This document shows, one piece after another, positions 3 to 62,727 of a stretch of 64,000 nt of DNA. The stretch comes from Anaerobacillus isosaccharinicus (lineage in GTDB: Bacteria > Bacillota > Bacilli > Bacillales > Anaerobacillaceae). A model generated the notes under the pieces. The model was not told where the DNA came from. It worked only from the letters and a program-made list of their open reading frames with translations, and searched no databases. The position numbers were made by a program, and so were the translations under genes. Location: positions 2,222,164 to 2,286,163 of the forward strand of contig NZ_CP063356.1 in the NCBI RefSeq assembly GCF_001866075.3, in the 5' to 3' direction. Numbering within the stretch: position 1 is the stretch's first letter; each line of letters opens with the position of its first letter.

Positions 3-332
3 TTCTTCTTTATTATAACATCTACTATTGAATGGTTTACGTGGTATGAGCCATTAACAATGGGAGCAGGGTTTGCTATGGTTTTTATTACTCCTTTCCA
101 AATTGTTATAACACCTATACTTTGGATGTTCTACGAAAGTTCGATAGTTTATAAGAGGATTGCAATTACATCAACAATTCATTTATGTTTAATTTTATTT
201 AATTTAATTTTTACTTTAATCAACGGAAACTTTGTTACGTTTATTTCCATTGGGACGGTTTTATTACAACCGTTAATTTCACTCATATTTATCGTTAGCT
301 TAATCGTCTTCTTACGGAAGCCAAAGCAATAA
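3..332 (+). CDS. Membrane protein, C-terminal part (5' end outside window)
   Basis: The reading frame is open from the first bases of the window, so this is the end of a longer gene; an internal ATG at 60 is not a convincing start. About 109 residues are visible, almost all hydrophobic, with three probable membrane helices and a short basic tail (RKPKQ). I do not recognise a family. A cassette-type hairpin repeat follows the stop codon, as for the other small membrane protein genes in this window. Confidence 0.7.
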   Translation, partial: FFFIITSTIEWFTWYEPLTMGAGFAMVFITPFQIVITPILWMFYESSIVYKRIAITSTIHLCLILFNLIFTLINGNFVTFISIGTVLLQPLISLIFIVSLIVFLRKPKQ

Positions 333-360
333 TACTAAATGTACATTTAATGATGCAAGT

Positions 361-387
361 AACGGAAGCTTATATATAGTATCCGTT
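361..387 (+). repeat. Cassette hairpin repeat (short form)
   Basis: Arms AACGGA (361-366) and TCCGTT (382-387) enclose an AT-rich loop. It lies just after a stop codon. The same AGCTTATATA-type loop recurs at 11948-11976. Confidence 0.55.
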
Positions 388-569
388 CAAAAACATAACG
401 ATCTTGTTAATCAAAAATACCCTTCCTCTTTAAGTACATTAAATGCGTAAAATTACCGACTGTATTAATCACAGTCATTTTTTGTCCAGGTATTGGAAAA
501 AGGTTAAACTAAAGAGCGAATACTTAAAGAAGAGGAGTCTTCCTTAACAAGGAAAAAAGGAGAGGAAAT

Positions 570-818
570 ATGAATCAAAACAAGTCTTATCTTATTGGTT
601 CTATGTTAATTTTATCGGGTACAATTTTGTTAGGTTTTATGCATCTCGCAATGGCAACATACATTCCTAATATGACAGGTTGGGGCAGTCCTCCTGGAAA
701 GTTTGCTACTGTGCTCAATGGAATAATGGGATGGTTCCCATACATTCTAAGTATTGTTCAAATTGGAACTGGGGCATTATTAGTTTGGAATTCAATTTTT
801 AATCATAAGCAAAGTTAG
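570..818 (+). CDS. Small membrane protein, 82 aa
   Basis: ATG start preceded by AAAGGAGAGG. There are two predicted membrane helices (about residues 7-29 and 50-72) joined by a loop rich in Gly, Pro and Trp (TGWGSPPGK). The N-terminus and the last residues are polar. No family recognised. It stands alone between two repeat copies, so it is probably its own transcription unit. Confidence 0.75.
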   Translation: MNQNKSYLIGSMLILSGTILLGFMHLAMATYIPNMTGWGSPPGKFATVLNGIMGWFPYILSIVQIGTGALLVWNSIFNHKQS

Positions 819-830
819 TAACTCGTTCTT

Positions 831-858
831 GCACTAAAGGGAGCAATAGTTGAAAACG
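831..858 (+). repeat. Cassette hairpin repeat, degenerate
   Basis: Contains the left-half signature GGAGCAATAGTTGAA found after many genes in this window. The right arm is not clear. It lies between the 570-818 gene and the start of the interrupted gene at 891. Confidence 0.5.
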
Positions 859-1027
859 AATTCTGAAAGAAAACATAAATGAGGTGAAATATGGATAAAA
901 ACAATTTGTATAAAAAACTTTTTTTTCTATCATTGTTCGTAATTTTTGTATTAAGTTTAAGTCTTTATTCATATGTAAGCGTCAAATAATGCCCACCTAG
1001 TTTTTCAGGTGGGCATTAGTGTATTCT

Positions 1028-2623
1028 TTATTTAAGTTTAGCAGGGATCCTGCATTCATTTGGAATGGACTTTGACCACGGAAGGAATTGGTCAAGTGCT
1101 TCCTGATCATCTAGGTCTATTTGTGGTAAGTGTTCAAAAAGATAAGTTAAATAATTTAATGGATTTAATTGATTCTCTTTGGCAGTTTCGACAATGCTGT
1201 AGATGACCGCACTGGCGGTTGCTCCTTTCATCGATTGGGCAAACAACCATGCTTTTCTTCCCATAACGAATGGTTTAATTGAACGTTCTGCTCTATTATT
1301 ATCGAGTTCAAGTCGCCCGTCTTTCATAAAGACAATGAGTTTTGACCATTGGTTTAAACTATAATTTATGGCATCGCCTAATTTGCTTTTAGGTGGAACT
1401 TGAGGGCGTTTGGATTTTAGCCATGCCAAATAAGCGTCCAACACAGGTTGACTACGTTTTTGACGTTCTTCTTTTCGCTGTTCAGGACTACAATTTTCAA
1501 ATTCCTCTTCTATCTGTTTTTCAATTTTAAATAATTGCGTACAGAAGTGAAGACCTTCAGCTGCGAGACTCGTAGATTTATCTACACTTGCAGGCAAAGA
1601 TTTGAGCGTTTCGTCGTATTTACGGCGTGAATGCGCCCAACAGCCAACTAACTCCACATCCTTCATATCATGGTAACCTGCATAACCATCGACATGAAGA
1701 TAGCCCGCAAATCCTTTTAGAAAGGCTTTCGGGTGTTTACTATGGCGAGAAGTTTGATAGTCATATAAGACAATCGGTGAAACATCCCGACCAGATCGAT
1801 ACAACCACATATAGGATTTGGAAGTTGCTAATTTATCAGGTTCTGCTAAAACTTGAACGGTTGTTTCATCTGCGTGCAGACGGTCAAGATGAAGCAGTAA
1901 CTCATGCAGGCGATTGTATAACGGTGAGAGCCACTTTGTTGCACCATATATTACCCAATTGGCAATCGTTTGGCGTGATAGAAAGACACCCAGCCGTTCA
2001 AATTGTTTTTCGATTCGGTACAACGGCATTCCTTCTACGTATTTTTGATTCATGATATATGCCATTGCAGAAGGAGAAGCGAGACTTTTTGGAAAGACTG
2101 CCGCAGGCATTTTAGCTGTGACAACCGGCGTTTCTATTCCTTCGCGTTCACATTGACGGCAACTGTATATATGTCGAACATGTTCAACGACTGTTACTTG
2201 AGCAGGAATAATTTTTAGCTCACGTCTTGTTTGCGTACTCATTTCATGTACAGTTTCACCGCAACACAAACAGACCTGCTCTTCTTCGGATAAACGATAA
2301 TGGATCGTTTCCGTAGGCAAGTTTTCAAGCTTCGCATCTCGTTGTCCTACATGCTTCTTTCGATTATAAGTAATCGTTTCAAGTGTAGGTTCTTCCATTT
2401 TTACATCCGCTGTGATTTCAGCTTCATTAAAAAGAGGAAGTTCGATTTGATCCGGATTTGTTTTTTCACTCGAAGCCCCGAATTTCTTTTGTTGGCTTAG
2501 TCGGAATTGCTCTTCCAACCATTTGATTTTTGCCTCTAGGACTTCTTTTTGTTTTTCCAAATCCGCATTTTTCGCTGCGAGTTCTTCAATTGTATCTAGT
2601 AGTTCATTCGTCGTTTTTCTCAT
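1028..2623 (-). CDS. tnpC: IS66 transposase TnpC
   Basis: 531 aa, full length for the family. It has an N-terminal coiled coil (first ~50 residues), then a zinc-binding segment with CLCCGE and CRQCE motifs (about residues 118-160), then the DDE catalytic domain. Likely acidic residues are in [15 protein letters not shown] and the conserved [11 protein letters not shown] motif. A short C-terminal tail follows. Its protein is identical to those at 14445-16040 and 58202-59797, so the copies spread recently. Confidence 0.97.
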
Positions 2624-2670
2624 ATAAATAGAATAACATATAGAGAGGTGTCGTGGTTGATCAATTCTCT

Positions 2671-3027
2671 CTATATGATAAATTTTGCACTCATTTTTGG
2701 ATGGGCTTGTTTTTGTTCAAGTGGAAGTCCATCCAAGAGCCAGTTGAATTGGCGAGGACTGATCGATAGCGGCTTAGTAGTTTGTTCATCTGGCCATTGA
2801 AAAACGCCTTTTTCCAGTCGGCGATAATATAACCAAAACCCATTATGATCCCAATGAAGGATCTTTAGTTTATCTCGTTTGCGATTACAGAACACAAATA
2901 GATTGGAAGAGAAAGGATCCAATTGGAAACTCATTTGAACAATCGCTGCCAAACCATCAATCGACTTTCTCAGATCTGTTGCACCCGCCGCTAAATAGAC
3001 TCGTTGAATAGGTGTTTTACTTAACAT
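2671..3027 (-). CDS. tnpB: IS66 accessory protein TnpB
   Basis: 118 aa starting at MLSKTP. It has the family signature [15 protein letters not shown] and the [18 protein letters not shown] core typical of IS66 Orf2 proteins. The chosen ATG overlaps the end of tnpA, suggesting translational coupling. An upstream ATG at 3054 is possible but gives an unusual extension. TnpB is needed for transposition in IS66 elements, but its exact role is unsettled. Confidence 0.93.
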
Positions 3028-6954: not shown

Positions 6955-6967
6955 AGGAATTATCTTA

Positions 6968-7022
6968 AACTAAACGGAGTAATAGTAAAATAACGGGCTG
7001 TTATGCAGCCCGTTATTTTATG
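6968..7022 (+). terminator. Cassette left half plus strong terminator
   Basis: The left-half repeat signature AACTAAACGGAGTAATAG is followed by perfect 11-bp arms ATAACGGGCTG (6990-7000) and CAGCCCGTTAT (7006-7016), then TTTTA. It should terminate the 6682 gene. Confidence 0.75.
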
Positions 7023-7495: not shown

Positions 7496-7508
7496 TATCC
7501 GTTGAATT

Positions 7509-7570
7509 AACGAGGCAATAGCTGAATAAAGGTTATCGCTTCTTATAGAAGAATTGAACAGGTTACTTTA
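7509..7570 (+). repeat. Cassette hairpin repeat
   Basis: AACGAGGCAATAG and GGTTATCGCTTC form the stem. The right half GAATTGAACAGGTTACTTT follows. Confidence 0.75.
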
Positions 7571-7615
7571 AGATAGGGCTAGAATTGAGGAGTTTGATTT
7601 TGGAGAGATGAACAA

Positions 7616-7964: not shown

Positions 7965-7967
7965 ACA

Positions 7968-9714: not shown

Positions 9715-9750
9715 GGTGCGATAGCTGAATACAGGTTATCGCTTTTTTTT
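9715..9750 (+). terminator. Cassette hairpin acting as intrinsic terminator
   Basis: GCGATA and TATCGC arms around a GCTGAATACAGGT-type loop, followed by eight T. It shows that some copies of the repeat family can work as terminators. Confidence 0.8.
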
Positions 9751-10024
9751 GAAGTAATGAAAAATAGTCCCATACTCTGTAGCAAATAAGTAACCAACCA
9801 ACTGCTCGGCTCATAGATACGAATAGTTTAACAATTCTTTTCACACCCAATTTGTTATTTTCTGGTATATTCATTTAAGGAGACCCTTTTTGTTTTGAAG
9901 GGTTTCACTTAAATTAAGAAAGCATTTATGTTGAAGGAGTGGAGCATTGATTTCTAAAAACAAAACATGTATGAAACCCATTTTCCATTCAGATTCGTCT
10001 GTTCTATAAAAAGGGGGATTTCTA
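9751..10024 (+). other. Intergenic stretch, no gene
   Basis: Between the 9261 and 10025 genes I see a TTAAGGAGACCC-type hairpin (about 9878-9910) and a possible 18-codon frame from a TTG at about 9948 with a good binding site (GAAGGAGTGG). The latter could be a leader or the start of a lost gene. Nothing else is supported. Confidence 0.35.
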
Positions 10025-10573: not shown

Positions 10574-10623
10574 AAATTTTTTCATAGGAGTTTGCCAAGA
10601 AAGTGAATCAATATAAGCTATTT

Positions 10624-10660
10624 AACAAACGGCTGCTTTAGTTGAACAGCCGTAGTAAAG
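10624..10660 (+). repeat. Cassette hairpin repeat
   Basis: AACAAACGGCTG and CAGCCG arms (10630-10635 and 10647-10652) around a TTAGTTGAA loop. Confidence 0.7.
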
Positions 10661-11938: not shown

Positions 11939-11947
11939 TTTCTTCTT

Positions 11948-11976
11948 GAAGTAAAGGGAGCTTATATACAGTACCA
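11948..11976 (+). repeat. Cassette repeat bordering a gene-less unit
   Basis: GGGAGCTTATATACAGTACC. The core TTATATACAGTA reappears inverted at 12178-12191 and at about 12260. Confidence 0.5.
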
Positions 11977-16324: not shown

Positions 16325-16807
16325 GTGATTATCATTAAGAAATTTGGATTGATTTTGATGGTCTTGGCAGTTTTTTTTATATCAGCTTGTTCTGGAAAAG
16401 AGGTTGAACATTTCTCCTCTAAAGAAGAAGCCTTGGATTCTTTTATTGAAAAGGAAGATATTAAAGGGAATATTGATTTAATTTTAACAACAAGAGGGGA
16501 AAAATTATTAGTAGTACAGTCGAGAGAGGATGTATTTTTTGTCGCAGAATTAATTGAAGATAAAGAAGGGTATTACGCAGAGAGAATATCAGACAGTGTT
16601 GTATTAGGCATAGGGGCCAGTTGGGGATTAAATACAGTGGATAAAAATAAGTACACTATTTTTTTAAATAAGAACAAAGAAGATTTGAATTATACATCTT
16701 TCTCAAATGGAGAATATGATATGTCACTTGTAGAAGGACATACAATTACTAAAAACACAACGGAATTTACAAATGCGATAAAAGAGGTTGAAGTAATTAA
16801 AGATTAA
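16325..16807 (+). CDS. Lipoprotein of the SxxEA family
   Basis: GTG start placed at 16325, four bases after AGGTGGA; GTG codons at 16316 and 16322 overlap the binding site. Lipobox ISAC gives a lipid-anchored protein of about 160 aa. The mature part begins EHFSSKEEALDSFIEKE, then beta-rich sequence. Related in layout to the 10757 and 55596 genes. Its upstream region was cut by ISL3 at 12302-16254, so its original promoter may be lost. Confidence 0.7.
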   Translation: MIIIKKFGLILMVLAVFFISACSGKEVEHFSSKEEALDSFIEKEDIKGNIDLILTTRGEKLLVVQSREDVFFVAELIEDKEGYYAERISDSVVLGIGASWGLNTVDKNKYTIFLNKNKEDLNYTSFSNGEYDMSLVEGHTITKNTTEFTNAIKEVEVIKD

Positions 16808-16813
16808 ATTTAA

Positions 16814-16876
16814 TTAACGAAAGAGATAGTTGAACTAAGTTGTCGTATCTGTTGTTGTGCTAACAAGCAGTTCAGT
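16814..16876 (+). repeat. Cassette hairpin repeat, near-consensus
   Basis: TTAACGAAAGAGATAGTTGA, then AGTTGTCGTATCTGTT and the right half GTTGTGCTAACAAGCAG. One of the clearest copies. Confidence 0.85.
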
Positions 16877-16921
16877 GGGAAAAGCCTTTGAAAGAGTAAA
16901 AGATTCGGAGGGGTATCTTGA

Positions 16922-17173: not shown

Positions 17174-17185
17174 TCACTATTCAAT

Positions 17186-17250
17186 AAACGGATGCAAGAG
17201 TTGAACTAAGCTATCTTCGTGTTCTGGTGCTAACGAGACAGAAGAGTTGA
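17186..17250 (+). repeat. Cassette hairpin repeat, near-consensus
   Basis: AAACGGATGCAAGAGTTGAA, then GCTATCTTCGTGTT and GGTGCTAACGAGACAG. Confidence 0.85.
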
Positions 17251-17314
17251 AGAACGAATTTATATTTTGTCCAGTAATTTGAAATTTGTAGTCTAATAAC
17301 AAAGGGGGAATTTT

Positions 17315-17677
17315 ATGTTTAAGAAAGAGCTTTTCTTTTCTAATATATTGCTTTTATTTATGACTTTACTCGGTGGTTGTAGTAGTTCTCCTTCCAAAGA
17401 GATTTCATATGCATCTATATTGATAGCAAATGGAACGGAATATTACTTGCAAGGAGAAATTAAAGATAATGAATTTACTCTTGGTGAAAAAATTGGAGAA
17501 GTACAAAAAAAGGTAGCGATAGAAGTCCTGCCTAAAGAGGACTTTTCATCTAACTTTTTAGAAGTAGGTGAAGAAATATACTCTTCTAACGAAGATAGTA
17601 AGGTTATTATCGTAAAAAGAGAAAATGCCGCTTACCAAAAGTTCACAGAAAAAGATTACTATACAAATAAGGACTAA
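17315..17677 (+). CDS. Lipoprotein, paralogue of 39908 gene
   Basis: ATG after AAAGGGGG. Lipobox LGGC (Cys near 22), 120 aa. The mature domain has YASILIANGTEYYLQGEI, EFTLGEKIGEVQ and VGEEIYSSNEDSKVIIVK; the same blocks recur in the intact gene at 39908 and the broken copy at 37750. It probably forms a small beta domain; the lipoprotein at 39394 shares the GEEIG and final beta pattern. Function unknown. The stop is followed by CGTTGTTAAAGTAACGAAG, the same downstream bases as its paralogues. Confidence 0.75.
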   Translation: MFKKELFFSNILLLFMTLLGGCSSSPSKEISYASILIANGTEYYLQGEIKDNEFTLGEKIGEVQKKVAIEVLPKEDFSSNFLEVGEEIYSSNEDSKVIIVKRENAAYQKFTEKDYYTNKD

Positions 17678-17687
17678 CCGTTGTTAA

Positions 17688-17728
17688 AGTAACGAAGAGC
17701 GAATGTGGAACAAGCAGTGAAGAGTTTT
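17688..17728 (+). repeat. Cassette repeat, left half plus degenerate right half
   Basis: TTAAAGTAACGAAGAGCGAA, then GGAACAAGCAG. The left half matches those after the paralogous genes at 37750 and 39908. Confidence 0.65.
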
Positions 17729-26400: not shown

Positions 26401-26460
26401 AGTAATTCCTCCTAAAAATAGTTTGGACGTTAGTCCACTTCTATTATGGAAAAAATAGCA

Positions 26461-30103: not shown

Positions 30104-30132
30104 TGGTAATATTTCACTTATTTAAATTTTTT

Positions 30133-30190
30133 TAACGATAAGCAATAGCGGAACAGAGCTTTTATTTCTTTAACTATTGAGTTTAGTCCA
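30133..30190 (+). repeat. Cassette hairpin repeat
   Basis: AACGATAAGCAATAGCGGAA, then CAGAGCTTTTATTTC and ACTATTGAGTTTAGT. Confidence 0.65.
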
Positions 30191-30237
30191 ATAAGAGTGG
30201 ATAAGTTGTTTAAAATTATTGTGTGAGAGGTGTTTTA

Positions 30238-30753
30238 ATGCGAAGAGTTGAGGTTTTACCATATTGCGAGGAATGGTTAGAAATGTTTTGGGAGGAAAGT
30301 GAGAAACTTAAAATTTTGTTTGAAAACAAAATTTTAAATGTCTATCATATTGGAAGCACAGCAATTCCAAATATTAAAGCTAAACCAGTAATCGATATTA
30401 TGGTTGAGGTTTCTAACATTAGTGAGGTTGATAAGTTTAATAACAGGATGGAACAATTAGGATATGAAGTGATGGGTGAATACGGAATTCCAAAGAGGCG
30501 TTTTTTTAGTAAGGGTGGCGATAAAAGAACTCACCATGTTCATTTTTATGAAAAAGGAAATGAAGAAATTGTTCGTCACTTAGCATTTAGAGATTATATG
30601 ATTGCACATCCAGAGGAAGCTAAGAAGTACAGCGAATTAAAACAAACATTGGCAGAGAAATTCCCTACAAATATTGCTAAGTATATAGAAGGCAAAAACG
30701 ATTATATAAGAGAAATTGATAATAAAACAAAGGCATGGAGAAGACCTAACTAA
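30238..30753 (+). CDS. GrpB-like nucleotidyltransferase-fold protein
   Basis: 171 aa; ATG after GAGAGGTG. Matches the GrpB/UPF0157 family: VYHIGSTAIPNIKAKPVIDIMVEV carries the GS...(D)xD-type nucleotidyltransferase motif, and THHVHFYEKG and RHLAFRDYMIAHPE are conserved downstream. Cytosolic. Some members are fused to CoaE, but the substrate of stand-alone members is unknown. Confidence 0.85.
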   Translation: MRRVEVLPYCEEWLEMFWEESEKLKILFENKILNVYHIGSTAIPNIKAKPVIDIMVEVSNISEVDKFNNRMEQLGYEVMGEYGIPKRRFFSKGGDKRTHHVHFYEKGNEEIVRHLAFRDYMIAHPEEAKKYSELKQTLAEKFPTNIAKYIEGKNDYIREIDNKTKAWRRPN

Positions 30754-30970
30754 TTCTACTAATGTGACCTTTGTTAGCAAAAGAAGTTTTTTGCTACGGA
30801 TGTACAAATTTTTAGTGAATTAAAATAATAAGGAGTTTTAGTAAAAGTTGTTTCGGTAGCTATTATTTTTTAGCACAGGAAGTACTAAATCAGGTTAGTG
30901 AAATAAAAGAGGAGGATTTTCCGTAGGACGTATTGAAGTATTAAGTTATAAAAAAATGAGGAGATATAGA

Positions 30971-31405: not shown

Positions 31406-31488
31406 TTGATACGTAAGGAATACAATAGTTTAATAACTAACATGCGTTTGCTCGATGTGACTGCTTCGGTGGTCCTTTTTTTGTTCAA

Positions 31489-31547
31489 CAAACGGAAGCA
31501 ATAGTTTAGTAAACTTTTATGTTGTTACTGTGCTAAATAGCAGAATT
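31489..31547 (+). repeat. Cassette hairpin repeat
   Basis: AACAAACGGAAGCAATAG, then GTTGTTACTGTGCTAAATAG and CAG. Full-length copy with a diverged loop. Confidence 0.75.
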
Positions 31548-31584
31548 TTATGAAACTAAATTAAAAAATATGGGGGTTGGGGTT

Positions 31585-31965
31585 TTGGATGTGAACTTAA
31601 AGGAACATATAAAAGAATTGGAAGAAAGGCACACAGGACTTGAAGTTCGTAAAAGTCGTGAAGAACTAGATAAAATACTTGCAGATGATTTCTTTGAAAT
31701 AGGTAGTTCTGGTTATATGTTTGATAAAAAGGAGTGTCTCGAATCTGGAGTTGTGCTAACTGAGATGTCACTACATAATCACGAGATATATCCGTTATCA
31801 TCAGACGTTGTTTTATCTACTTATTTTGTAGTTGATAAAACTAGAAAACGGAATACACTTCGCAGCTCCATATGGAAATTTATAGATGGTAGATGGCAAT
31901 TGTATTTCCACCAAGGTACAATATCGCCATTACAATTAAACGATGTTCTCAAAGGATCCAATTGA
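31585..31965 (+). CDS. NTF2-like (DUF4440-type) protein
   Basis: About 126 aa. The start is uncertain: TTG 31585 or GTG 31591 after GGGGGTTGGGG; ATG 31570 overlaps the binding site. LEERHTGLEVRKSREELDKILADDFFEIGSSG is the usual helical start of this fold, and WKFIDGRWQLYFHQGT is its C-terminal strand pair. A cytosolic, probably dimeric cone-shaped domain; activity unknown. Confidence 0.75.
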   Translation: MDVNLKEHIKELEERHTGLEVRKSREELDKILADDFFEIGSSGYMFDKKECLESGVVLTEMSLHNHEIYPLSSDVVLSTYFVVDKTRKRNTLRSSIWKFIDGRWQLYFHQGTISPLQLNDVLKGSN

Positions 31966-32117: not shown

Positions 32118-32510
32118 TTGAAAATTTCTCGAAATCCAGAAACAGTACATAAACCAGTAGCACCATATGTGCATCAAATAGAGGTAACAGGTTCTAATAA
32201 ATGGCTTACATTGTCTGGTCAATTAGGTATGGAAGTTAATGGAACAGTACCAGAAAGTCCATTAGAGCAGCTACAATTAGCTCTTGAAAATATTAAAAGA
32301 AATCTTAAATCAGCTAATATGAACGTAGAAGATTTAACTAAGATGGTGTTTTATTTAGTAGGTGATTTTGATGCGGAAAAGAGAAGGAAAATTATTGGTG
32401 ATTTTTTAGGTGAACACCTTCCTTGTATGACTATGATTTATGTAGTGGCATTAGCAACGCCATTATTTAAAGTAGAGGTGGATGCTTGGGCATGCAAGGG
32501 AATTGATTGA
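32118..32510 (+). CDS. RidA/YjgF-family protein, atypical active site
   Basis: 130 aa; TTG start after AGAAGGAATG. RidA features: LTLSGQLGM near residue 35, EQLQLALENIKRNLKSA, MVFYLVGDFD and a final KVEVDAWA strand. In RidA deaminases an arginine near the LP.R..V segment binds the imine carboxylate; here that region reads LPCMTMIYVVAL, without Arg. It is therefore probably not a canonical 2-aminoacrylate deaminase. Confidence 0.8.
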   Translation: MKISRNPETVHKPVAPYVHQIEVTGSNKWLTLSGQLGMEVNGTVPESPLEQLQLALENIKRNLKSANMNVEDLTKMVFYLVGDFDAEKRRKIIGDFLGEHLPCMTMIYVVALATPLFKVEVDAWACKGID

Positions 32511-33618: not shown

Positions 33619-34353
33619 ATGGGACTTATAAATAATTGGGTTAAAATTCAAGGGATTAATATCCACTTTATTGAAACTAGCCTGGAGACAACAAATAATG
33701 AAATACCTCTAGTAATTATTCCAGGACTCTCTGAATCTGCAGAGGATTATATACATATAATGGAGGCATTGTTACCTCGAAAATGTGTTGCTATAACTCT
33801 TAGAGGTAGAGGTAAAAGTGACGCTCCACAGATTGGTTATACCTTAGAAGATCATATTGGTGATATTGAATCAGTTGTCAACCATCTTGATTTGAAAGAA
33901 TTTATACTTATGGGTTTTTCAAGAGGTGTTTCTTACGCTCTAGGTTTTACATTTGCTAATTTAAACTTAGTAAAAGGGCTTGTGTTAGGAGATTATCCTG
34001 CATTTCATTCACAACTTCCCATTGGATGGGTAGAGTTTTTTTCTGGTTTACCACCTTGGAGAGGAAAAGAATTAAATGAAAGAATGACAACAAATTCATT
34101 AAAAGCACTACAAAATGAGTCTAGGCAAGTATTGTTTTGGGATGAACTTACATCAATAAAATTTCCAGTTCTTATTATTCGTGGAGGGCAACAAGGGGCA
34201 GTCTTATCAAAGGAAGATGGAGATAGATATATTGAAATGATTCCAAATTCAAAACTTGTTTTATTCGATGAATCTAATCATAATATTTTCGAACCAAGCC
34301 TTGAAAAATTTATTATTACAATAAAGGATTTCTTTGAAACAGTAGAGGGTTAA
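33619..34353 (+). CDS. Alpha/beta hydrolase
   Basis: 244 aa; ATG after AAAGGAAGG. Oxyanion region VIIPGLSES, LRGRGKSDAP, nucleophile elbow GFSRGV (Ser near 97), and final His in SNHNIFEP (about 218), so the triad is likely complete. No signal peptide. Substrate unknown. Confidence 0.87.
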   Translation: MGLINNWVKIQGINIHFIETSLETTNNEIPLVIIPGLSESAEDYIHIMEALLPRKCVAITLRGRGKSDAPQIGYTLEDHIGDIESVVNHLDLKEFILMGFSRGVSYALGFTFANLNLVKGLVLGDYPAFHSQLPIGWVEFFSGLPPWRGKELNERMTTNSLKALQNESRQVLFWDELTSIKFPVLIIRGGQQGAVLSKEDGDRYIEMIPNSKLVLFDESNHNIFEPSLEKFIITIKDFFETVEG

Positions 34354-34357
34354 TTCA

Positions 34358-34382
34358 AGTAACGGAGGCGATAGTTTAAGTT
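34358..34382 (+). repeat. Cassette repeat, left half
   Basis: GTAACGGAGGCGATAGTTTA follows the hydrolase stop within 6 bases; the right half is degenerate. Confidence 0.6.
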
Positions 34383-34420
34383 AAAAACATACATTACAAA
34401 TTAAAAAGGGGGCTAGGGTA

Positions 34421-34642
34421 GTGTGGGAGTTTCTTGTAGCAAGAATAACGGTACTAATTACATTGGGTATTGGTACACTACTGGTTGTATTATTCCCTTT
34501 GATAAATAAAGAGAATAGATATTTTGCATGGCTTAGTTTAACAATCGGTGTTTTTATTATCACAATTCTTTTATATTGGGTTTTAGGTGACGAAGGTTAT
34601 AGAGGACAGTTTTTGGGTTTAGAAAATATAAACTCTTATTAA
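34421..34642 (+). CDS. Small membrane protein, 73 aa
   Basis: GTG start after AGGGGGCTAGGG. Two helices (about 5-27 and 34-55), then a polar tail GDEGYRGQFLGLEN. Unknown family. Confidence 0.7.
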   Translation: MWEFLVARITVLITLGIGTLLVVLFPLINKENRYFAWLSLTIGVFIITILLYWVLGDEGYRGQFLGLENINSY

Positions 34643-34718
34643 ACAAACGGAAGCAATAGTTGAAGAATAGGAGTTGTCGATGCGATAACTCCTATCGCCT
34701 ATTGAAGTAAAGAAACAG
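34643..34718 (+). repeat. Cassette hairpin repeat with long secondary stem
   Basis: AACAAACGGAAGCAATAG, then ATAGGAGTT and AACTCCTAT arms and TATTGAAGTAAAGAAACAG. Confidence 0.75.
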
Positions 34719-35057
34719 TTTTTTTGAATAATAAATGTAAGAAAATATACATAATTTGGTATGGGATTGAATTCATTGAGGTTTATAATTTGTTTAATAT
34801 TTCCTTTTTGGGAGGGCTACAAAATGAATGAAATCGAGTGTTGGTATGATACTGAATACGACGAATGGGAAAGATTAGAGCGTCATAAAATTGAGTTTGA
34901 TATTACCAAACGGTTCCTTGATGATTTTATTAAAGAGCATTCCTGTTAGAAGTATTTTCGGGGACTTGAACAAAAAAGAGCCTTCTTGGTATGATACGGG
35001 GTGTCAAATCGTCTGCCGAGATGACCCCTAACTTAGTTAACCAAGGAGGACTCCATA

Positions 35058-36714: not shown

Positions 36715-37390
36715 GAGAATTTAGAAATATTCGATATTGGTGGGGGACCAGGCAGATATGCTATGTACTTAGCAGAAAGAGGACATAAAGTAACTCTTTT
36801 GGACCTATCGAAAAAAAATATTGAAGTAGCAAAAAGAAAGTCCTTTGAAAAAGGTATTACTTTACAGGGATATATACACGGCAATGCCTTGGAGTTGGGT
36901 GAATTTGAGTGGCAATATGATGTTATCCTTCTAATGGGACCGTTATACCATTTGATAAAAGAATCTGATAGGAGAAAGGCGGTCGAAGGTGCATTAAAAT
37001 TATTAAAACCAAATGGAATTATAATTGTTACTTTTATCTCCAGTTATGCTCCAATACAAGATAATTTATTGCACTTATATCCGATTGAATTTGTTGAAGA
37101 TTTACTTGGTTATTTAGAAAATGGAGAAAATAAAGAAGGAAAAGGTTTTACAACTGCATATTTTATTAATCCTAATGAAGCAAAAGAATTTATGAATAGC
37201 CACGGATTACAGGAGGTAACATTTGCGGGGATTGAAAACATTTTAGGTTGCAAGGAAAAAGAGATAAATTTATTAGATGAAAGTGAGTACAGGAAGTGGA
37301 TAGAAATCGGGTATCGTCTAAGTACTGATGAAAGTTTAATTGGTACAAGTCAACATTTGTTGTATATTGGTCGTAAAGTGTGAACTTGAA

Positions 37391-37567: not shown

Positions 37568-37627
37568 GAAAGAAATTGTTTACCATGTACTTTTAGAAGG
37601 ATAATTATTAGGTACTTCCTTCCACTA

Positions 37628-37688
37628 TTGAGAGCGATAGCACAAGAAGGCTATCGCTTCTGTTGCTATTGAAGCAGTTTAGCACAAC
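37628..37688 (+). repeat. Cassette hairpin repeat (duplicate of 39783-39845)
   Basis: GAGCGATAG and CTATCGCTTC arms with a CACAAGAAGG loop, then TTGAAGCAGTTTAGCAC. Confidence 0.85.
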
Positions 37689-37749
37689 AAGACATGATAA
37701 TTGAAACTGTTCGATAACTTTTTGCCAAATTACTAAAGGGGGAATTTTT

Positions 37750-38117
37750 ATGTTAAAGAAAGGGCTTTTTTTGCTAATATACCGCTTTTAGTTTTGATTT
37801 TTATCGGTGGTTGTAGTAATTCTTCTTCAACAAACGGTTCATATGCAGCTATTTTAATGGCTAATGGAAAGGAATATTACTAGCAAGGTATAATTAAAGA
37901 TAATGAATTTACCCTTGGTGAAAAAATAGGTGAAGTACAAAAAATAATAGCAAAAGAGGACGTGCCAAAAGAGAATTTTTCATCTAACTTTTTAGGTTTA
38001 AATGTAGGTGAAGAGATACACTCTTCCAACGAAGATAGTAAGGTTATTATAGTAAAAAAAGAAAATGGTGATTACCTAAAGTTTACCGAAAAGGGCTACT
38101 ACAAAGATAAAGACTAA
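37750..38117 (+). pseudogene. Broken copy of the 39908 lipoprotein
   Basis: Almost the same DNA as 39908-40276. Seven T instead of eight near codon 8 shifts the frame, and the Trp codon TGG of the intact copy is TAG here (EYY*QG). The duplicated block runs from 37569 to 38142, matching 39728 to 40302. Confidence 0.93.
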
Positions 38118-38125
38118 TCGTTGTT

Positions 38126-38166
38126 AAAGTAACGAAGGCAATAGCTGAAAAAAGGTTATGGCATTT
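38126..38166 (+). repeat. Cassette hairpin repeat
   Basis: GTAACGAAGGCAATAGCTGA, then AGGTTATGGC. It shares its left half with the copy after 39908 and then diverges. Confidence 0.75.
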
Positions 38167-38215
38167 TTCTTATTAAAGTACCCGATAGGATAGTAAGGAT
38201 GGAGGGCTAAAAGTA

Positions 38216-38722
38216 ATGATTATATTAGAAACCGAAAGATTGATATTAAGACAGCTAAAAGATGAAGATATACCTTCTCTTTATTCTATCTTTTCTGATG
38301 CTGAAACAATGAAGTATTACCCAGCCCCGTTTAGTTATGAGAAAACACAAAATTGGGTGAAGGTAAGTCAAGAAAGGTATAAGGAAGATGGCTTTGGATT
38401 ATGGGCAGTTTGCCTGAAGGAAAATAACGAATTAATAGGTGATTGTGGGCTTGTTAAACAACAAGTAGACGGTAAAACAGAAGTTGAGGTCGGCTACCAT
38501 ATTAAAAAAGATTTTTGGTCAAATGGGTACGGTTCTGAAGCTGCTAATGCCTGTAAGGAATACGGTTTTAATAAGTTAGGTTTAAATAAGTTAATTAGTA
38601 TTATTGACCCAAAGAATATACCGTCAATTCGTGTGGCAGAAAAAGTTGGTTTTAGTAAGGAAAAAGAAGTTTTTATTTTTAATAAAAATCATTTTATTTA
38701 CTCGTGCATTGAGAAGTTATAA
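38216..38722 (+). CDS. GNAT acetyltransferase, RimJ/RimL type
   Basis: 168 aa; ATG after GGAGGG. LETERLILRQLKDEDIPSL is the usual start. The acetyl-CoA motif is HIKKDFWSNGYGSEAANACK; the end is IPSIRVAEKVGFSKEKE. Complete. Acceptor unknown; relatives acetylate protein N-termini or small molecules. Confidence 0.87.
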   Translation: MIILETERLILRQLKDEDIPSLYSIFSDAETMKYYPAPFSYEKTQNWVKVSQERYKEDGFGLWAVCLKENNELIGDCGLVKQQVDGKTEVEVGYHIKKDFWSNGYGSEAANACKEYGFNKLGLNKLISIIDPKNIPSIRVAEKVGFSKEKEVFIFNKNHFIYSCIEKL

Positions 38723-38776: not shown

Positions 38777-38841
38777 TTGTGGAATTTATTAACAATTAGC
38801 ATTGCTTTAAAGGTTTAAAAATGAATATAAGGGGATGGAAG

Positions 38842-39255
38842 ATGGAGGATTGTATCTTTTGTAAAATAATCTCTAAAACCGTAGATGCATATATGATTTA
38901 TGAGAATGAATATGTTTGTTGCTTTTTGGACAAATACCCTATTAACAAGGGACACATCCTTGTTGTTCCTAAGAAACATTATCAAGAGTTTAGAGAAGTT
39001 GACCAAGAAAGTTTGAGCAAAATTAGCCACGCCTCTCAACAAGTAGCGACTGCTTTGGAAGGGTTATTAAGCACAGATGGAATTACGATAATGCAAAACA
39101 ACGGAATATTTAAGGATATTGAGCATTATCATATGCACGTTATTCCACGTTTTAAAAATGATGGTTTTTCTTGGATAGAGCCAAAGATTGAAGTTACCAA
39201 AGAAGAATTTATTTCTTTAAGTGCTAAATTAGGAAAAGTTCTTAAAAAGAATTAA
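38842..39255 (+). CDS. HIT-family hydrolase
   Basis: 137 aa from ATG 38842, after AGGGGATGG. The N-terminal CIFCKII zinc-type motif, the NKGHILVVPKKH strand and the catalytic histidine triad HYHMHVIP (about 98-105) are all present. Cytosolic nucleotide hydrolase or transferase, probably acting on adenosine-linked dinucleotides; exact substrate unknown. Confidence 0.9.
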   Translation: MEDCIFCKIISKTVDAYMIYENEYVCCFLDKYPINKGHILVVPKKHYQEFREVDQESLSKISHASQQVATALEGLLSTDGITIMQNNGIFKDIEHYHMHVIPRFKNDGFSWIEPKIEVTKEEFISLSAKLGKVLKKN

Positions 39256-39257
39256 AG

Positions 39258-39318
39258 TAAACGGATGCGATAGCGGAACTGAGCTGTCGCTTTTCAACTA
39301 TCGAGCAGTTTACTACAA
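39258..39318 (+). repeat. Cassette hairpin repeat, near-consensus
   Basis: AAACGGATGCGATAG and CTGTCGC arms with CGGAACTGAG loop, then ACTATCGAGCAGTTTACT. Confidence 0.85.
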
Positions 39319-39393
39319 CAACGGTAATGCTCTTTTTTATTCAAAAAGAAGAAACATAGTAAAAGATTTTCTTGTCTAATACAGGAGGTGTAT

Positions 39394-39762: not shown

Positions 39763-39782
39763 TTAATAGGCACTTCCTTCCA

Positions 39783-39845
39783 CTATTGAGAGCGATAGCA
39801 CAAGAAGGCTATCGCTTCTGTTGCTATTGAAGCAGTTTAGCACAA
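39783..39845 (+). repeat. Cassette hairpin repeat
   Basis: GAGCGATAG and CTATCGCTTC arms, CACAAGAAGG loop, then the right half GAAGCAGTTTAGCAC. Confidence 0.85.
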
Positions 39846-39907
39846 CAAGACATGATAATTGAAATTGTTCGATAACCTTTTTCCAAATGACTAAAGGGGC
39901 AGTTTTT

Positions 39908-40276: not shown

Positions 40277-40285
40277 TCGTTGTTA

Positions 40286-40352
40286 AAGTAACTAAGGCAA
40301 TACTTTAACAAGCTGTTGCTTCCGTAGTGGTGCTAACTGGCAGGTTAGTAGA
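40286..40352 (+). repeat. Cassette hairpin repeat, near-consensus
   Basis: TAACTAAGGCAATACTTTAA, then GCTGTTGCTTCCGTAG and GGTGCTAACTGGCAGGTTAG. Confidence 0.85.
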
Positions 40353-40383
40353 CTTACAATTCCAAATGAAAGAGGGCATGGTA

Positions 40384-40896: not shown

Positions 40897-40988
40897 ATAA
40901 TGAACCTATGTGATATTCAAAAGTTTATTGCGCTAACGGAGCGTATAACAAACAATTTTTTTAATAACTAAATCATGAGGTGAGGGAA

Positions 40989-41762
40989 TTGAAGGATTCA
41001 GTTAGTGATTTTTATGATAACCTAGCAGAAGAGTACCATCTCATATTCGAAGATTGGCATAATGCAATTTCTTGGCAAGGAGAGGTTTTATCTAAATTGA
41101 TACTTTCTAAATTAAATGATCTAAACATCAATGATGTTTCTGTGTTGGATAGCTCTTGTGGAATTGGTACTCAGGCAATAGGTCTAGCGAAAAAGGGATA
41201 TACGGTTACTGCAACAGACATAAGTCCAGCATCAGTAGAAAGAGCAAGAAAAGAGGCAGAATCATTTGGGGTCGAAATTAATTTTGGAGTTGCTGACTTT
41301 CGTTCATTGGCAAATGATGTCTCTGGCTTTTTTAATGTAGTATTATCAGCGGATAATGCTATCTCACACCTTCTTACGAATCAAGATTTATTGTTAGCTG
41401 CACAAAATATATATAATAAACTTGAAGACAAAGGTATTATTATTGTTACCTTGAAAGATTACAATGAACTTATAATAGAGAAGCCAAGGGCTACACAACC
41501 AAGAATTTTAGATAATGGTAATCGTATTATTTTTCAGTTATGGGATTGGCACGACGGAACAAACGTTTATTCGCTAAATCACTTTATTATGCAACAAATT
41601 AATGGAGAATGGAAAACCAAACAAGATAAAACAAAATACCGAGCTTTATTACGAAGTGAGTTTAGTAAGATTTTGAGCGATGTTGGTTTTTCAGATATTG
41701 AATGGTATATGCCAGAAGAATCTGGTTATTATCAACCTCTTTTAATAGCAAAAAAGAATTGA
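40989..41762 (+). CDS. SAM-dependent methyltransferase
   Basis: 257 aa from TTG 40989 after GAGGTGAGGG. The class I fold has motif I VLDSSCGIGTQAIGLAKKG (about 46-64), TATDISPASVERA as motif II and VVLSADNAISHL as motif IV, plus a C-terminal beta domain typical of glycine/sarcosine-type methyltransferases. Substrate not identifiable. Confidence 0.85.
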   Translation: MKDSVSDFYDNLAEEYHLIFEDWHNAISWQGEVLSKLILSKLNDLNINDVSVLDSSCGIGTQAIGLAKKGYTVTATDISPASVERARKEAESFGVEINFGVADFRSLANDVSGFFNVVLSADNAISHLLTNQDLLLAAQNIYNKLEDKGIIIVTLKDYNELIIEKPRATQPRILDNGNRIIFQLWDWHDGTNVYSLNHFIMQQINGEWKTKQDKTKYRALLRSEFSKILSDVGFSDIEWYMPEESGYYQPLLIAKKN

Positions 41763-43047: not shown

Positions 43048-43056
43048 CCACTTAAT

Positions 43057-43120
43057 GTAACGAATACAATAGCGAACAAGGCTATCATTGCAGTTGTGGT
43101 TCTAACTGGGAGAATACTTT
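43057..43120 (+). repeat. Cassette hairpin repeat, near-consensus
   Basis: GTAACGAATACAATAGC, then GGCTATCATTG and GTTGTGGTTCTAACTGG. Confidence 0.85.
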
Positions 43121-43156
43121 ACACTAGGGTTAATTTAACTTAGGAGGTGAGCACTA

Positions 43157-53048: not shown

Positions 53049-53072
53049 ACATTTTTTCTCCCTCCCTATTGC

Positions 53073-53138
53073 ACTAAACTCGTTAGCACCGTAACCGGAG
53101 CGACAGCTTACTTCACTATCGCTCTCCTTTACTTAAAC
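53073..53138 (-). repeat. Cassette hairpin repeat, near-consensus, inverted
   Basis: On the - strand: AAGGAGAGCGATAGTGAAG, then CTGTCGCTCCGGTT and GGTGCTAACGAG. Its orientation follows the - strand genes. Confidence 0.88.
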
Positions 53139-56168: not shown

Positions 56169-56207
56169 TCTAAATTCCTCCCTCTAGTTCTTTAAGAAAC
56201 CTCCCTG

Positions 56208-56252
56208 ATTGTGGGGGAAGCGACAGCTAATTGTGCTATCGCATCCATATAA
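56208..56252 (-). repeat. Cassette hairpin repeat, inverted
   Basis: On the - strand: ATGGATGCGATAGCACAA, then AGCTGTCGCTTCC. Confidence 0.8.
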
Positions 56253-56292
56253 TAACAAAATGAAAAATGAGTATTATTTAGAAAACATTAGT

Positions 56293-56715: not shown

Positions 56716-56745
56716 AAAATGCCTCCTAACGGTTATTTTGGTTTT

Positions 56746-56790
56746 TAATCAGCCGCTCGTTACCACCATACGGCAGCAACAACTTATTAA
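56746..56790 (-). repeat. Cassette repeat, right half, inverted
   Basis: On the - strand: GTTGTTGCTGCCGTATGG, then TGGTAACGAGCGG. Confidence 0.7.
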
Positions 56791-56840
56791 ACTTTGAGAA
56801 CGTTGCTTGAAGAGTGAAAAACGCTATTGTCATATGTAAC

Positions 56841-57062: not shown

Positions 57063-57082
57063 TAATATGCCCCTTGGTTACG

Positions 57083-57150
57083 CTTGTTAGCTCTTCTGCT
57101 TAGTTACAATTAGCTATAGTAACTGTTAAACTATTGCTTCCGTTTATTGA
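57083..57150 (-). repeat. Cassette hairpin repeat, inverted
   Basis: On the - strand: AATAAACGGAAGCAATAG, then AGCTAATTGTAAC and the right half AGAAGAGCTAACAAG. Confidence 0.8.
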
Positions 57151-57312
57151 ATAAAACCAGTCTTACTCATTAAATAGTATAAGTTTATCTTTTAGTTCAT
57201 CTACGTTTGCTAAATATTCAATTTCATTCCAATCAAAAATGCTTCGTTCTTTATACTTTCCTGGTGTTTCTTCCCATTTTGAAAATGTGTAATAAATATG
57301 TGCTATATCATC

Positions 57313-61576: not shown

Positions 61577-61610
61577 GGACTTGGTATCAAACTGGGTCCT
61601 TTTCTTTTTT
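61577..61610 (+). terminator. Terminator-like hairpin
   Basis: GGACTTGG and CTGGGTCC arms with T-rich DNA after; same type as 19923-19955, including the preceding AATGAATAATTT. Confidence 0.6.
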
Positions 61611-61751
61611 GAAAAAATTGTTCTTGCAACTGGTAATTAGTGTTAAAATTTATTTGAGTAAAAAACTGGGTAGTAAAAGAACGAAGCTCTATGTAAGCGT
61701 ACAAGAAGTTGGTTTTTAACGTTAGTCCATATTTAAATAGGAGGGTTTGAA

Positions 61752-62003
61752 TTGAGTAAACGTGGAACTGGTGTTGCATTTATCGCAATTTCTGCACTAT
61801 TAATATCATCAAAATATATAAGTGCTTCAATATTTGGTTCAGGAGTTGTTAGTTGGAATAAATCTTTATATGAAGCAATGTTAGGTTATGTTGGTAACAC
61901 TTTAAGTAATTTTAGTTTATTAGCTTTTATTACGGGAATAGCATACATCGTCTGGGAAGAGTATGAGGACTGGAAGAATAAAAACAAAAATTATAATAAC
62001 TAA
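61752..62003 (+). CDS. Small membrane protein, 83 aa
   Basis: TTG start after GGAGGG. Two hydrophobic segments (about 8-28 and 47-66) and a charged tail WEEYEDWKNKNKN. Unknown family. Confidence 0.7.
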   Translation: MSKRGTGVAFIAISALLISSKYISASIFGSGVVSWNKSLYEAMLGYVGNTLSNFSLLAFITGIAYIVWEEYEDWKNKNKNYNN

Positions 62004-62010
62004 TTTTTAT

Positions 62011-62085
62011 TAACTAAAGCTCCCAAGAGTGCATTAAGGAAGCAACGATTTCATAACTCCTATTGTGTTAAAGAGCAGTTTGATC
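62011..62085 (+). repeat. Cassette hairpin repeat, diverged
   Basis: TAACTAAAGCTCCCAAGAGT, then GGAAGCAACG and the right half TGTTAAAGAGCAGTTTGAT. Confidence 0.6.
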
Positions 62086-62141
62086 ATATTAGTAGCTTCC
62101 ATTTATTGGTGAATTTTTGAGAGCGATTGTTCAATAGGAGA

Positions 62142-62182
62142 TCGAATATTATAGCTCAAAACGATAAATAGGTAATATTCGA
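62142..62182. repeat. 10-bp inverted repeat
   Basis: TCGAATATTA (62142-62151) and TAATATTCGA (62173-62182), upstream of the Nudix gene. Possible operator or terminator. Confidence 0.45.
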
Positions 62183-62233
62183 TTATATAATATTTAACCT
62201 TCAGAGCTGTCCATTAATTAGAGGTGTAAAAAA

Positions 62234-62692
62234 ATGAAGATAGAATTTTCAAATATAGGTGCAGTTAGTGAAAGAGAATTAAAATTTGCTGTAATAAGTA
62301 CTACTTATAAGGGGAAATGGCTTTATGTTAAGCATAAAGACCGAAACTCTTGGGAAATCCCTGGTGGGCATAGAGAACCTGGAGAAATGATTGACGAAAC
62401 AGCGAAAAGAGAGTTATTTGAAGAAACAGGGTGCAAAGAAGTAGATTTAGTTCCCATTTGCGATTATTCAATGGACGATTCCGTTAATAAAATTTTTGGA
62501 AGGTTATACTTTGCAAGAATAAAGGAAATCGGTCAATTACCAATATCGGAAATTGGCGAAGTGAAACTATTCGATAAACTCCCCAAAAACCTTACTTATT
62601 TAGAGATTCAACCTAAATTACTTGAAAAGACACTTGCTTTTATTAAAGATTGTGAAGGTTTACAATATATATTCTTTGCAATGGATAATTAA
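62234..62692 (+). CDS. Nudix hydrolase
   Basis: 152 aa; ATG after AGAGGTG. Complete Nudix box: GGHREPGEMIDETAKREL then FEETG (about 44-67), with all metal-binding glutamates. WEIPGGH precedes it as usual. Cytosolic; substrate a nucleoside diphosphate derivative, not further identifiable. Last gene of the array. Confidence 0.9.
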   Translation: MKIEFSNIGAVSERELKFAVISTTYKGKWLYVKHKDRNSWEIPGGHREPGEMIDETAKRELFEETGCKEVDLVPICDYSMDDSVNKIFGRLYFARIKEIGQLPISEIGEVKLFDKLPKNLTYLEIQPKLLEKTLAFIKDCEGLQYIFFAMDN

Positions 62693-62727
62693 ATGCAATG
62701 TAACAAAAATATGGAACTTATTTTATT

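Follow-up and report, generated by a model that had tools for sequence, protein, structure and literature searches.

The stretch analysed here, called the window, comprises 64,000 nt of the closed 5.23-Mb genome (G000) of Anaerobacillus isosaccharinicus (C1:2222164-2286163) and carries small genes separated by copies of a repeat of ~80 bp. The repeat contains two adjacent core sites, A and B, which resemble the dif sites of Xer recombinases. A sequence-only reading of the window had described it as an integron-like array. The gene-cassette array is borne out by gene order, block edges and an associated recombinase; membership in the integrons is not, as the IntI and attC features fail. Judged from the sequences compared, the window is very probably one of several mobile single-gene cassette arrays with dif-like A and B sites, for which a dedicated XerA-like recombinase is proposed.

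Repeats and genes of the window

A repeat model (R1), built from sequence only with 15 window copies as seeds, recovered 19 copies in the window at E<0.01: the 15 seeds, one copy identical to a seed and three new ones. The whole genome holds 89 places at E<=1, and 54 at E<=0.001 with stricter filters; the repeat family exists. Its size in the window was estimated too high, at ~35 copies; about 19-26 are detectable, R1 giving 19 copies and a core-site matrix derived from other genomes 26 matches above 10 bits. Among 61 genomes, 29 contain R1 copies, including 7 of 7 of the genus. Placement in the own genome is clustered, not random (~0.56, 0.90, 1.91, 2.21-2.29 (the window), 2.43, 3.60-3.69, 4.33 and 4.55-4.58 Mb), and nearly all copies of a cluster share one orientation.

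The orientation of the repeat tracks that of the genes, as the sequence-only reading had stated; four copies at 53-57 kb are reversed together with their genes, hence the repeats are not always on the plus strand. The absence of the repeat from insertion sequence (IS) elements is also upheld by R1, which finds none there at E<=1. Two matrix matches, at 44275 (-, 11.9 bits) and 48697 (-, 9.4 bits), fall in open reading frames (ORFs) of mobile elements that occur repeatedly, and seem fortuitous. The claimed start within a few bases of a stop codon applies to part of the copies: measured from the A left arm against a hand-picked ORF list, 10 of 15 plus-strand A sites above 10 bits lie at -3 to 16 nt, and five at 48-741 nt. 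The single idealised hairpin had to be given up, as it consists of an A and a B core site and a variable stretch between them.

Unless stated otherwise, the following features lie on the plus strand. Near the left end, an A core site, TTGCACTAAA-GGGAGC-AATAGTTGAA (829..854; matrix 27.7; R1 E 0.028), stands behind gene 570-818, and a degenerate one (6965..6990; matrix 15.9) behind the DUF4190 gene 6682-6954 (PF13828). A composite A+B repeat (7499..7576; R1 46.8 bits) follows gene 7133-7495, and a partial repeat (9716..9762; R1 22.4 bits) follows gene 9261-9695. Two further A core sites, TTTAACAAAC-GGCTGC-TTTAGTTGAA (10621..10646; matrix 27.2) and one at 11946..11971 (matrix 15.2), stand behind genes 10025-10573 and 11702-11938, respectively. 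The composite A+B repeat at 16805..16884 (R1 60 bits) is placed 2 nt past the stop of gene 16316-16807, and the next (17177..17258; R1 54.5 bits) stands behind gene 16922-17173. At the B junction of the latter repeat lies the left border of a cassette also present in the 0.56-Mb array (L015:12406/window:17239). This cassette (17239..17697) runs from the B junction to the next A arm, contains gene 17315-17677 and is 92-96% identical to cassettes of the 0.56 and 3.69 Mb arrays.

Between gene 29789-30103 and a GrpB family gene (30223..30753; PF04229) lies a composite repeat (30125..30197; R1 38.2 bits). In G003, the genome of a sister species within the genus, DNA 89% identical to the GrpB gene is found in other surroundings (C17:342810-343369). 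In the window, this gene is followed by cassette genes for a GNAT acetyltransferase (30956..31405; PF00583), a DUF4440 protein (31570..31965; PF14534), a RidA/L-PSP family member (32118..32510; PF01042) and an alpha/beta hydrolase (33619..34353; PF00561), with a composite A+B repeat (31479..31559; R1 48.5 bits) between the first two. At the A core site TTCAAGTAAC-GGAGGC-GATAGTTTAA (34350..34381; matrix 28.4; R1 19.8 bits) begins an A-to-A cassette (34361..34651) with a small ORF (34421-34642). It is 99% identical over 291 bp in G003, where the neighbours differ and the edges are the A junctions. Beyond a composite A+B repeat (34635..34735; R1 43.8 bits) stands a methyltransferase gene (36763..37383; PF08241), which in the own 3.69-Mb array and in G003 adjoins the preceding cassette without the IS110 element.

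A block of 575 bp (37570..38143) is duplicated, with a 97% identical second copy at 39728-40302; its right edge falls 26 nt inside the next repeat, at the A site. The two copies carry the same composite repeat (37616..37693 and 39774..39851; R1 45.2 bits each). Between these lie another composite repeat (38120..38197; R1 45.9 bits), a second GNAT acetyltransferase gene (38216..38722; PF13302), a HIT family gene (38821..39255; PF01230) with an 89% identical copy at 3.643 Mb, and a composite repeat adjoining the HIT stop (39252..39324; R1 50.3 bits). They are followed by a composite repeat with the B half GCTAAC-TGGCAG-GTTAGT (40279..40359; R1 58.8 bits), a second methyltransferase gene (40980..41762; PF13649) and a further composite repeat (43051..43127; R1 48.1 bits). 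The inverted block carries four composite repeats on the minus strand (53063..53137, 56185..56260, 56737..56814 and 57082..57155; R1 52.8, 35.7, 39.6 and 40.9 bits). Near the right end, a NUDIX cassette gene (62234..62692; PF00293) has an 85% identical copy in the 0.56-Mb array (L015:11882-12325).

In a Pfam scan of 40 window ORFs (E<=1e-4), 20 had no family, three were transposases (12392, 35058, 53573), one was a sigma factor (62887) and 16 were others. The latter include GNAT (2), methyltransferase (2), HIT, NUDIX, RidA, GrpB, VanZ, RDD and DUF4440, as well as PNPOx_N at 42571, which is marginally below its cut-off. These families agree with the gene content listed earlier (GNAT, HIT, Nudix, RidA, methyltransferases).

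Two site classes and the edges of exchanged blocks

Each core site is built like a Xer/dif site, with 10-bp inverted arms (TTnAACTAAC / GTTAGTTnAA) around a spacer of 6-7 bp. The spacer reads GGnnGC in A (ideal GGGTGC) and GRGCAG (GGGCAG-like) in B, and the B consensus points to a 7-nt spacer in many copies. The repeat is seen as two dif-like sites because of the order read in Jeotgalibacillus soli (L085, same contig as L157). There, an antisense recombinase gene is followed by a simple site, TTGAAGTAAC-GGGCAG-GATAGTTGAA, and then by site-separated genes, and the array includes a perfect site, TTCAACTAAC-GGGCAG-GTTAGTTGAA. Complete single core sites exist without an A-B hairpin or terminator.

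One genome per species was scanned for relatives of the array recombinase described below; 409 were found and 78 loci (1.32 Mb) kept. Their named sources are genera that we take to be Bacillales, except for one contig labelled Chryseobacterium. The arm consensus gave 115 palindromic sites at <=2 mismatches, versus 0 in a Markov-shuffled control. Two spacer classes recur, A with GGGTGC and variants and B with GGGCAG, TGGCAG or GAGCAG, and 208 of 212 oriented sites lie on the strand opposite the recombinase. Matrices applied at 12 bits place 1044 of 1075 sites opposite the recombinase (A 526, B 518; same strand 21 and 10), and the Markov control yields 12 sites. The B matrix was built with a spacer condition, since the symmetric arms let reversed A sites pass as B. 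As a further control, 25 loci with other tyrosine recombinases, each 3.5-3.9 kb long, together had 1 site above 10 bits; locus L118, which bears a fragment of the array recombinase family, was omitted from this set. Sites, classes and orientation are thus demonstrated at the level of sequence.

Neighbouring sites are paired as B-A (357), A-B (345), A-A (156) and B-B (143). A-B segments are short, with a median spacing of 59 bp where no recombinase is enclosed, and 240 of all 345 A-B pairs span <150 bp. For B-A segments, the median is 651 bp. Among the 304 of 150-1800 bp, 255 have their longest ORF in sense and 45 in antisense direction, and 4 have no ORF; where a sense ORF of at least 150 nt is present (254 segments), it ends at a median of 26 nt ahead of the A arm. 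The repeat hairpin is partly a terminator, as a stem of at least 6 bp with a T-rich tail is found in 69 of 309 A-B segments, versus 1-5 in five shuffles; the mirror arrangement occurs once. Terminators in part of the A-B segments suggest that many cassette genes possess their own promoters. Integron cassettes, in comparison, are promoterless and driven by Pc. Among 215 non-redundant cassette ORFs, the 140 scanned yielded 96 Pfam families, the commonest being GNAT with 5 members, and anti-phage models gave 8 matches, one member each.

The ~80-bp repeat was also considered as a single hairpin. This was rejected, as six window copies fold weakly and inconsistently (z -0.7 to -2.6) and the outer arms of the 309 A-B composites show no compensatory change (z -1.8 to 1.3). 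The inner arms give mixed pairing (z -2.5 to 2.9), with single compensatory positions up to z 3.7, and the outer stem is part of the predicted fold in 18 of 120 sampled composites. The mean folding z of the two strands in these 120 is similar (-1.18 and -1.29), and therefore there is no strong bottom-strand preference.

The cassettes are shuffled within the genome. Nine other stretches of the own genome, 211 kb together, were compared with the window, and segments of 200-800 bp reappear, reordered and about 80-99% identical, in the 0.56, 2.2 and 3.6 Mb arrays. Nine of the 14 listed right block edges run up to TTnAAnTAACG and end there or a few bases on, and the remaining five are out of register or end elsewhere. 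Of the left edges, 4/12 lie at this TTnAAnTAACG box and 2/12 at a second internal box, GCTAACGAG, the others being elsewhere or unclear. Shuffling also extends to the genus: when 18.1 kb of the window was compared with six other genomes (40 candidates scored per genome; one genome without match), the listed matches reach at most ~820 bp outside transposase stretches, and their orders differ. G003 has the 34.7 kb piece with the methyltransferase, then GrpB and then the 34.4 kb cassette, and the window has GrpB, 34.4, 34.7 and methyltransferase. Against G003, the edges of the 34361-34651 cassette fall in A spacers. Cassette order thus varies between arrays of the own genome and between species, as an array would require according to the sequence-only reading, and is not fully conserved.

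Block ends were then located across 112 loci (blocks of >=88% identity and 200-4000 bp; 43 ends at locus edges skipped). As many as 295 of 555 homologous ends lie within -10 to +20 nt of the junction between TAAC and GGG, compared with 3.2% of random positions; the block edges are thus on the repeat here as well as in the own genome. Blocks with both ends at a site are A-B (64), B-A (20), A-A (15) and B-B (2). All 14 displayed A-B blocks span the recombinase, and some A-A blocks do likewise. Where both copies have a site at the end, its orientation is kept in 220/221 cases and its class in 200/221. Peribacillus block edges, listed in part, were kept out of these statistics, as many are group II introns and IS elements. 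Single cassettes are shared across genera with sharp edges at B and A, for example between Jeotgalibacillus soli and Bacillus timonensis (93%, 485 bp) and between Virgibacillus indicus and Paucisalibacillus globulus (98.6%, 425 bp). Block edges, shuffling and cross-genus sharing are thereby seen in the sequences, as is the recombinase placement given below. In same-species pairs of Paucisalibacillus globulus and Neobacillus niacini, no single insertion could be resolved, the recombinase surroundings being too different.

The array recombinase and the competing explanations

The own genome contains 51 tyrosine-recombinase matches, among which a family of 279 aa stands apart. Its copy at 0.552 Mb is near the 0.56 Mb array, and that at 0.917 Mb is near the 0.90 Mb array. 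The window itself is a cassette array without a copy of this recombinase. Two other genera have relatives with 76-77% identity, again within arrays or next to them, and the GGGCAG attI-like site beside these relatives points away from the recombinase. Read in array direction, the flanks of 69 recombinase loci with a site on both sides (11 bits) are A before and B after in 47, BB in 12, AA in 7 and BA in 3. At 8 bits, the gene is antisense between A and B in 41/42 loci with both sites within 400 bp. A B site is present <=300 bp upstream in 56/75 loci, and in some loci the array extends on both sides of the recombinase.

Other catalysts were considered. XerC, XerD, XerS and a 41%-identical paralogue at 1.03 Mb were rejected, as their loci and the paralogue's relatives are almost without core sites. 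No IntI-type integrase was found, with 0/299 genomes of the order at E<=1e-60, although 14 control genomes were equally silent, so that this is no proof of absence.

The ideal unit of an array would be A, terminator, B, gene, A, terminator, B, gene, with mostly single genes, each between B and the following A. The XerA-like recombinase, usually antisense between A and B, would act on double-stranded DNA, pair sites mostly within their class (A with A, B with B) and exchange strands in the spacer, beside TAAC. The pieces excised and inserted, in one direction only, would be gene segments (B to A), segments with a terminator or the recombinase (A to B), or both together. Where an A-B segment has a terminator, this would keep the genes as separate transcription units. 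We infer that the 279-aa recombinase is the catalyst, that its substrate is double-stranded, that circles are intermediates and that new genes are captured.

Several observations weigh against this explanation. The flanks are other than A-B in 22/69 recombinase loci, 45/304 B-A segments have an antisense longest ORF, and a terminator is visible in only 69/309 A-B segments. The count of 1044/1075 sites is partly circular, because training of the matrices and counting used the same 78 loci, which leaves strand bias and control unaffected; a shared direction of the array genes could produce part of the strand consistency. No recognised site is near 260/555 block ends, class differs in 21/221 paired ends, and the block counts are non-independent, two contigs being present twice (L085/L157, L083/L147). 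The link between recombinase and sites is incomplete, because 49/238 recombinase-free genomes have >=3 matches to the A pattern and 8/61 genomes with recombinase have none. Two genomes rich in repeats, G005 (28) and G056 (18), give no recombinase match above Xer level (best E 4.6e-30 and 9.2e-30), and could rely on a different recombinase.

A genuine, if divergent, integron, in which the A-B composite is an attC recombined as a folded single strand by a divergent IntI, is unlikely, though the likeliest of the alternatives. An attC is composed of left and right simple sites, which A and B resemble. The recombinase gene runs antisense to the array, an attI-like site lies upstream of this gene (56/75 loci) and the array diverges from it (1044/1075 sites). 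Diverse small single-gene cassettes in uniform orientation and exchangeable order are found, arrays without recombinase exist as in the clusters of attC sites lacking integrases (CALIN), group II introns occupy the sites as in true attC, and single inner-arm positions are compensatory (z up to 3.7). These likenesses hold for the IntI/attI/attC systems, including the sedentary chromosomal integrons. In contrast, the protein does not score as an IntI. The own 0.917-Mb copy scores 84 bits with the integron integrase model TIGR02249 (cut-off 265) and 209 bits with the XerA-type NCBIfam model (cut-off 220). Its closest solved relatives are XerD (2.9e-34) and XerA, with IntI4 aligned over 80 residues only, and its first fold neighbours are XerA and XerD, IntI4 being ninth (the AlphaFold model is mediocre, with pLDDT 72 and a low C-terminus). 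Nor do the sites look like attC, an imperfect palindrome of conserved structure recombined as a folded bottom strand: GTTAGTT misfits the GTTRRRY core, the outer arms of the 309 composites lack covariation and are folded in 18/120, the inner arms are mixed, complete single sites occur without an A-B hairpin, and block edges fall at A as well as B. Further differences from integrons are the terminator in part of the A-B segments, the array on both sides of the recombinase in some loci and the Bacillales host. The IntegronFinder 2 study reported one complete integron and a few CALIN in Firmicutes, and integrons there as extremely rare (PMC9024848).

That host XerC/XerD recombine the sites as in the dif modules of Acinetobacter, the dedicated recombinase being mere cargo, is still less probable. 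The core site has the dif/pdif layout of two 10-11 bp recombinase arms around a 6-bp spacer, the sites flank small shuffling accessory modules, arrays exist in recombinase-free genomes and the recombinase module moves like a cassette. According to the pdif literature, spacer identity decides the partners and modules shuffle (PMC13141974), IS target pdif sites (PMC10132070) and chromosomal pdif sites exist too (PMC12907356). However, the pdif modules belong to Rep_3 plasmids and alternate in C/D orientation, whereas 97% of the Bacillales sites are in one orientation, opposed to the recombinase. Those arrays are also large and chromosomal, with A/B spacer classes and a dedicated recombinase, which has a preferred place antisense between A and B. 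The two arms of a Bacillales site are inverted and almost the same in sequence, while a pdif site is made of differing XerC and XerD half-sites, and the loci of the own XerC, XerD and XerS and of 22 other recombinases contain 1 site in total. Self-transposing terminator-associated or REP/MITE-like repeats, with genes shuffled by homologous recombination or IS, are very improbable: terminators between A and B and the IS elements common in the window would fit, but there are two core sites with two spacer classes, 295/555 edges lie at spacers, 220/221 block ends keep orientation where a mobile repeat would be randomly oriented, the edges fall inside sites that, at 26 bp and with their divergence, offer little to homologous recombination, and simple sites without terminator occur.

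The system of A/B sites with an XerA-like recombinase thus works like integrons and dif modules, yet fails defining features of both where tested, and by membership it is not an integron. Sequence, fold and the short two-domain layout place the recombinase nearest to Xer proteins (XerD, XerA, XerH, XerS). Unlike these, it is tied to cassette arrays, often occurs in several copies per genome and also on plasmids, and forms a separate clade: in a tree of 57 recombinases, 29 family members group with 100/100 support, long outer branches leaving the sister group unsure. We lean, with some reserve, towards a gene-capture system of its own kind, derived from a Xer-type recombinase independently of integrons, with two spacer-coded double-stranded site classes, spread across Bacillales and parasitised by site-specific group II introns and IS. 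The comparison literature also includes PMC8138268 and PMC11089894. No description of such a system is among the matches listed in the open-licence PMC literature, subscription papers and preprints being outside this coverage.

If so, A-B and B-A segments would be exchanged separately, giving a modular array on chromosomes and plasmids. A widespread integron counterpart in Bacillales would account for a hidden reservoir of small accessory genes among soil and marine bacilli. Beside integrons, the textbook case of bacterial gene capture, it would offer a second case for how cassette arrays arise. The system's apparent use of dif-like double-stranded sites and two spacer codes would make it relevant to whether integrons began as a Xer/dif system. 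The recombinase together with the A and B sites is available as a search tool.

In the own genome, the recombinase seems to have decayed. In the 0.917-Mb copy, leucine replaces the arginine of the HxxR motif, which the other nine aligned sequences retain. The N-terminal piece of the 0.552-Mb copy lies ~1.7 kb apart from the remainder. Both copies look non-functional and the recombination platform in this genome is probably dead. We conclude that the window is a putative relic array, corresponding to integrase-free clusters of attC sites, and the arrays of this genome are taken to be old. In G003, an uninterrupted recombinase with the HxxR arginine and 92% identity was observed (L099, C17:326962-327798), and for that reason the system may still be alive in the genus.

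Distribution across Bacillales and inserted elements

At E<=1e-60, the recombinase is found in 61/299 genomes of the order and 35/116 genera, fragments and two 44%-identity matches included. The A pattern (one mismatch) has 738 matches in the 299 genomes versus 53 for the reversed pattern, with a median of 3 matches with recombinase and 1 without (Mann-Whitney p 1.3e-8). The distant tyrosine recombinase suspected earlier is thus linked with the repeat, but is not always in genomes with it, given the 49/238 exceptions. The system is not confined to Bacillaceae, the family named in the sequence-only reading, since Sporosarcina (Planococcaceae by record) carries it.

Plasmid records contain 14 recombinase matches at E<=1e-40, 8 of them with 60-80% identity, for example in Sporosarcina psychrophila and Peribacillus simplex. 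The 17 matches in phage records are all <60% identical (about 30-36% in the listed rows). A plasmid labelled Arthrobacter citreus NEB 577 (L129, CP053689.1 115884-140663) has a recombinase of the Bacillales type (66% identity), surrounded by ~20 small genes in antisense and by 32 core sites that score above 10 bits. The species name on this plasmid is probably mistaken. The contig labelled Chryseobacterium sp. ISL-80 (L208) has a recombinase of 75% identity and is more likely contamination than transfer.

Three Peribacillus genomes have 46-62 A-pattern matches each. The listed matches are co-directional with replication in 48/48 cases in G298 and in 45/47 chromosomal cases in G185 (hand count), taking the origin by dnaA and the terminus as the midpoint; ordinary leading-strand bias may explain part of this. 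The 0.56 and 0.90 Mb arrays of the own genome are oriented against replication.

Group II introns are inserted at the sites in Peribacillus. RF02005 was detected in 3/4 loci scanned, with further copies by identity. In 14/14 copies read, the intron begins at GTGTGCGG directly behind the A spacer, 13 of them with a recognisable left arm. An intron of ~700 bp with no long ORF occurs in near-identical copies at A sites (L212:4338-5033 and L212:18284-18979, with copies in L215, L216, L218 and L219), and a relative of ~1.96 kb has a 442-aa ORF; they are possibly the non-autonomous and autonomous forms. Two articles describe attC as the target of group IIC introns (PMC8876359, PMC9229058), and one of them also as that of IS1111 elements (PMC9229058). 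Peribacillus blocks with three kinds of IS110-like element, named from translated starts and not by family scan, have their edges at or beside A or B, these being block edges and not element ends. The window IS110 element (34925-36715) has an insertion point without a clear core site.

The IS elements of the window include IS110 (34925-36715, 49397-51187), ISL3 (12392) and DDE_Tnp_1_4 (53573). An element with a 531-aa ORF is present inside the array in three copies, identical over 2.45 kb (1028-2623 on the minus strand, 14445-16040 and 58202-59797); a fourth 531-aa ORF (43614-45209, -) shows no DNA-level likeness to them. The window also holds a trio of tyrosine-recombinase genes (23170-26466, -), a set found at six places in the genome, while a second, different trio is found four times. 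We take this trio to be a recombinase-in-trio (RIT) element. RIT elements are likewise made of tyrosine recombinases, but identity to the array recombinase is ~25%, and the part of the window where the trio lies (20.1-31.4 kb) has no core site above 8 bits.

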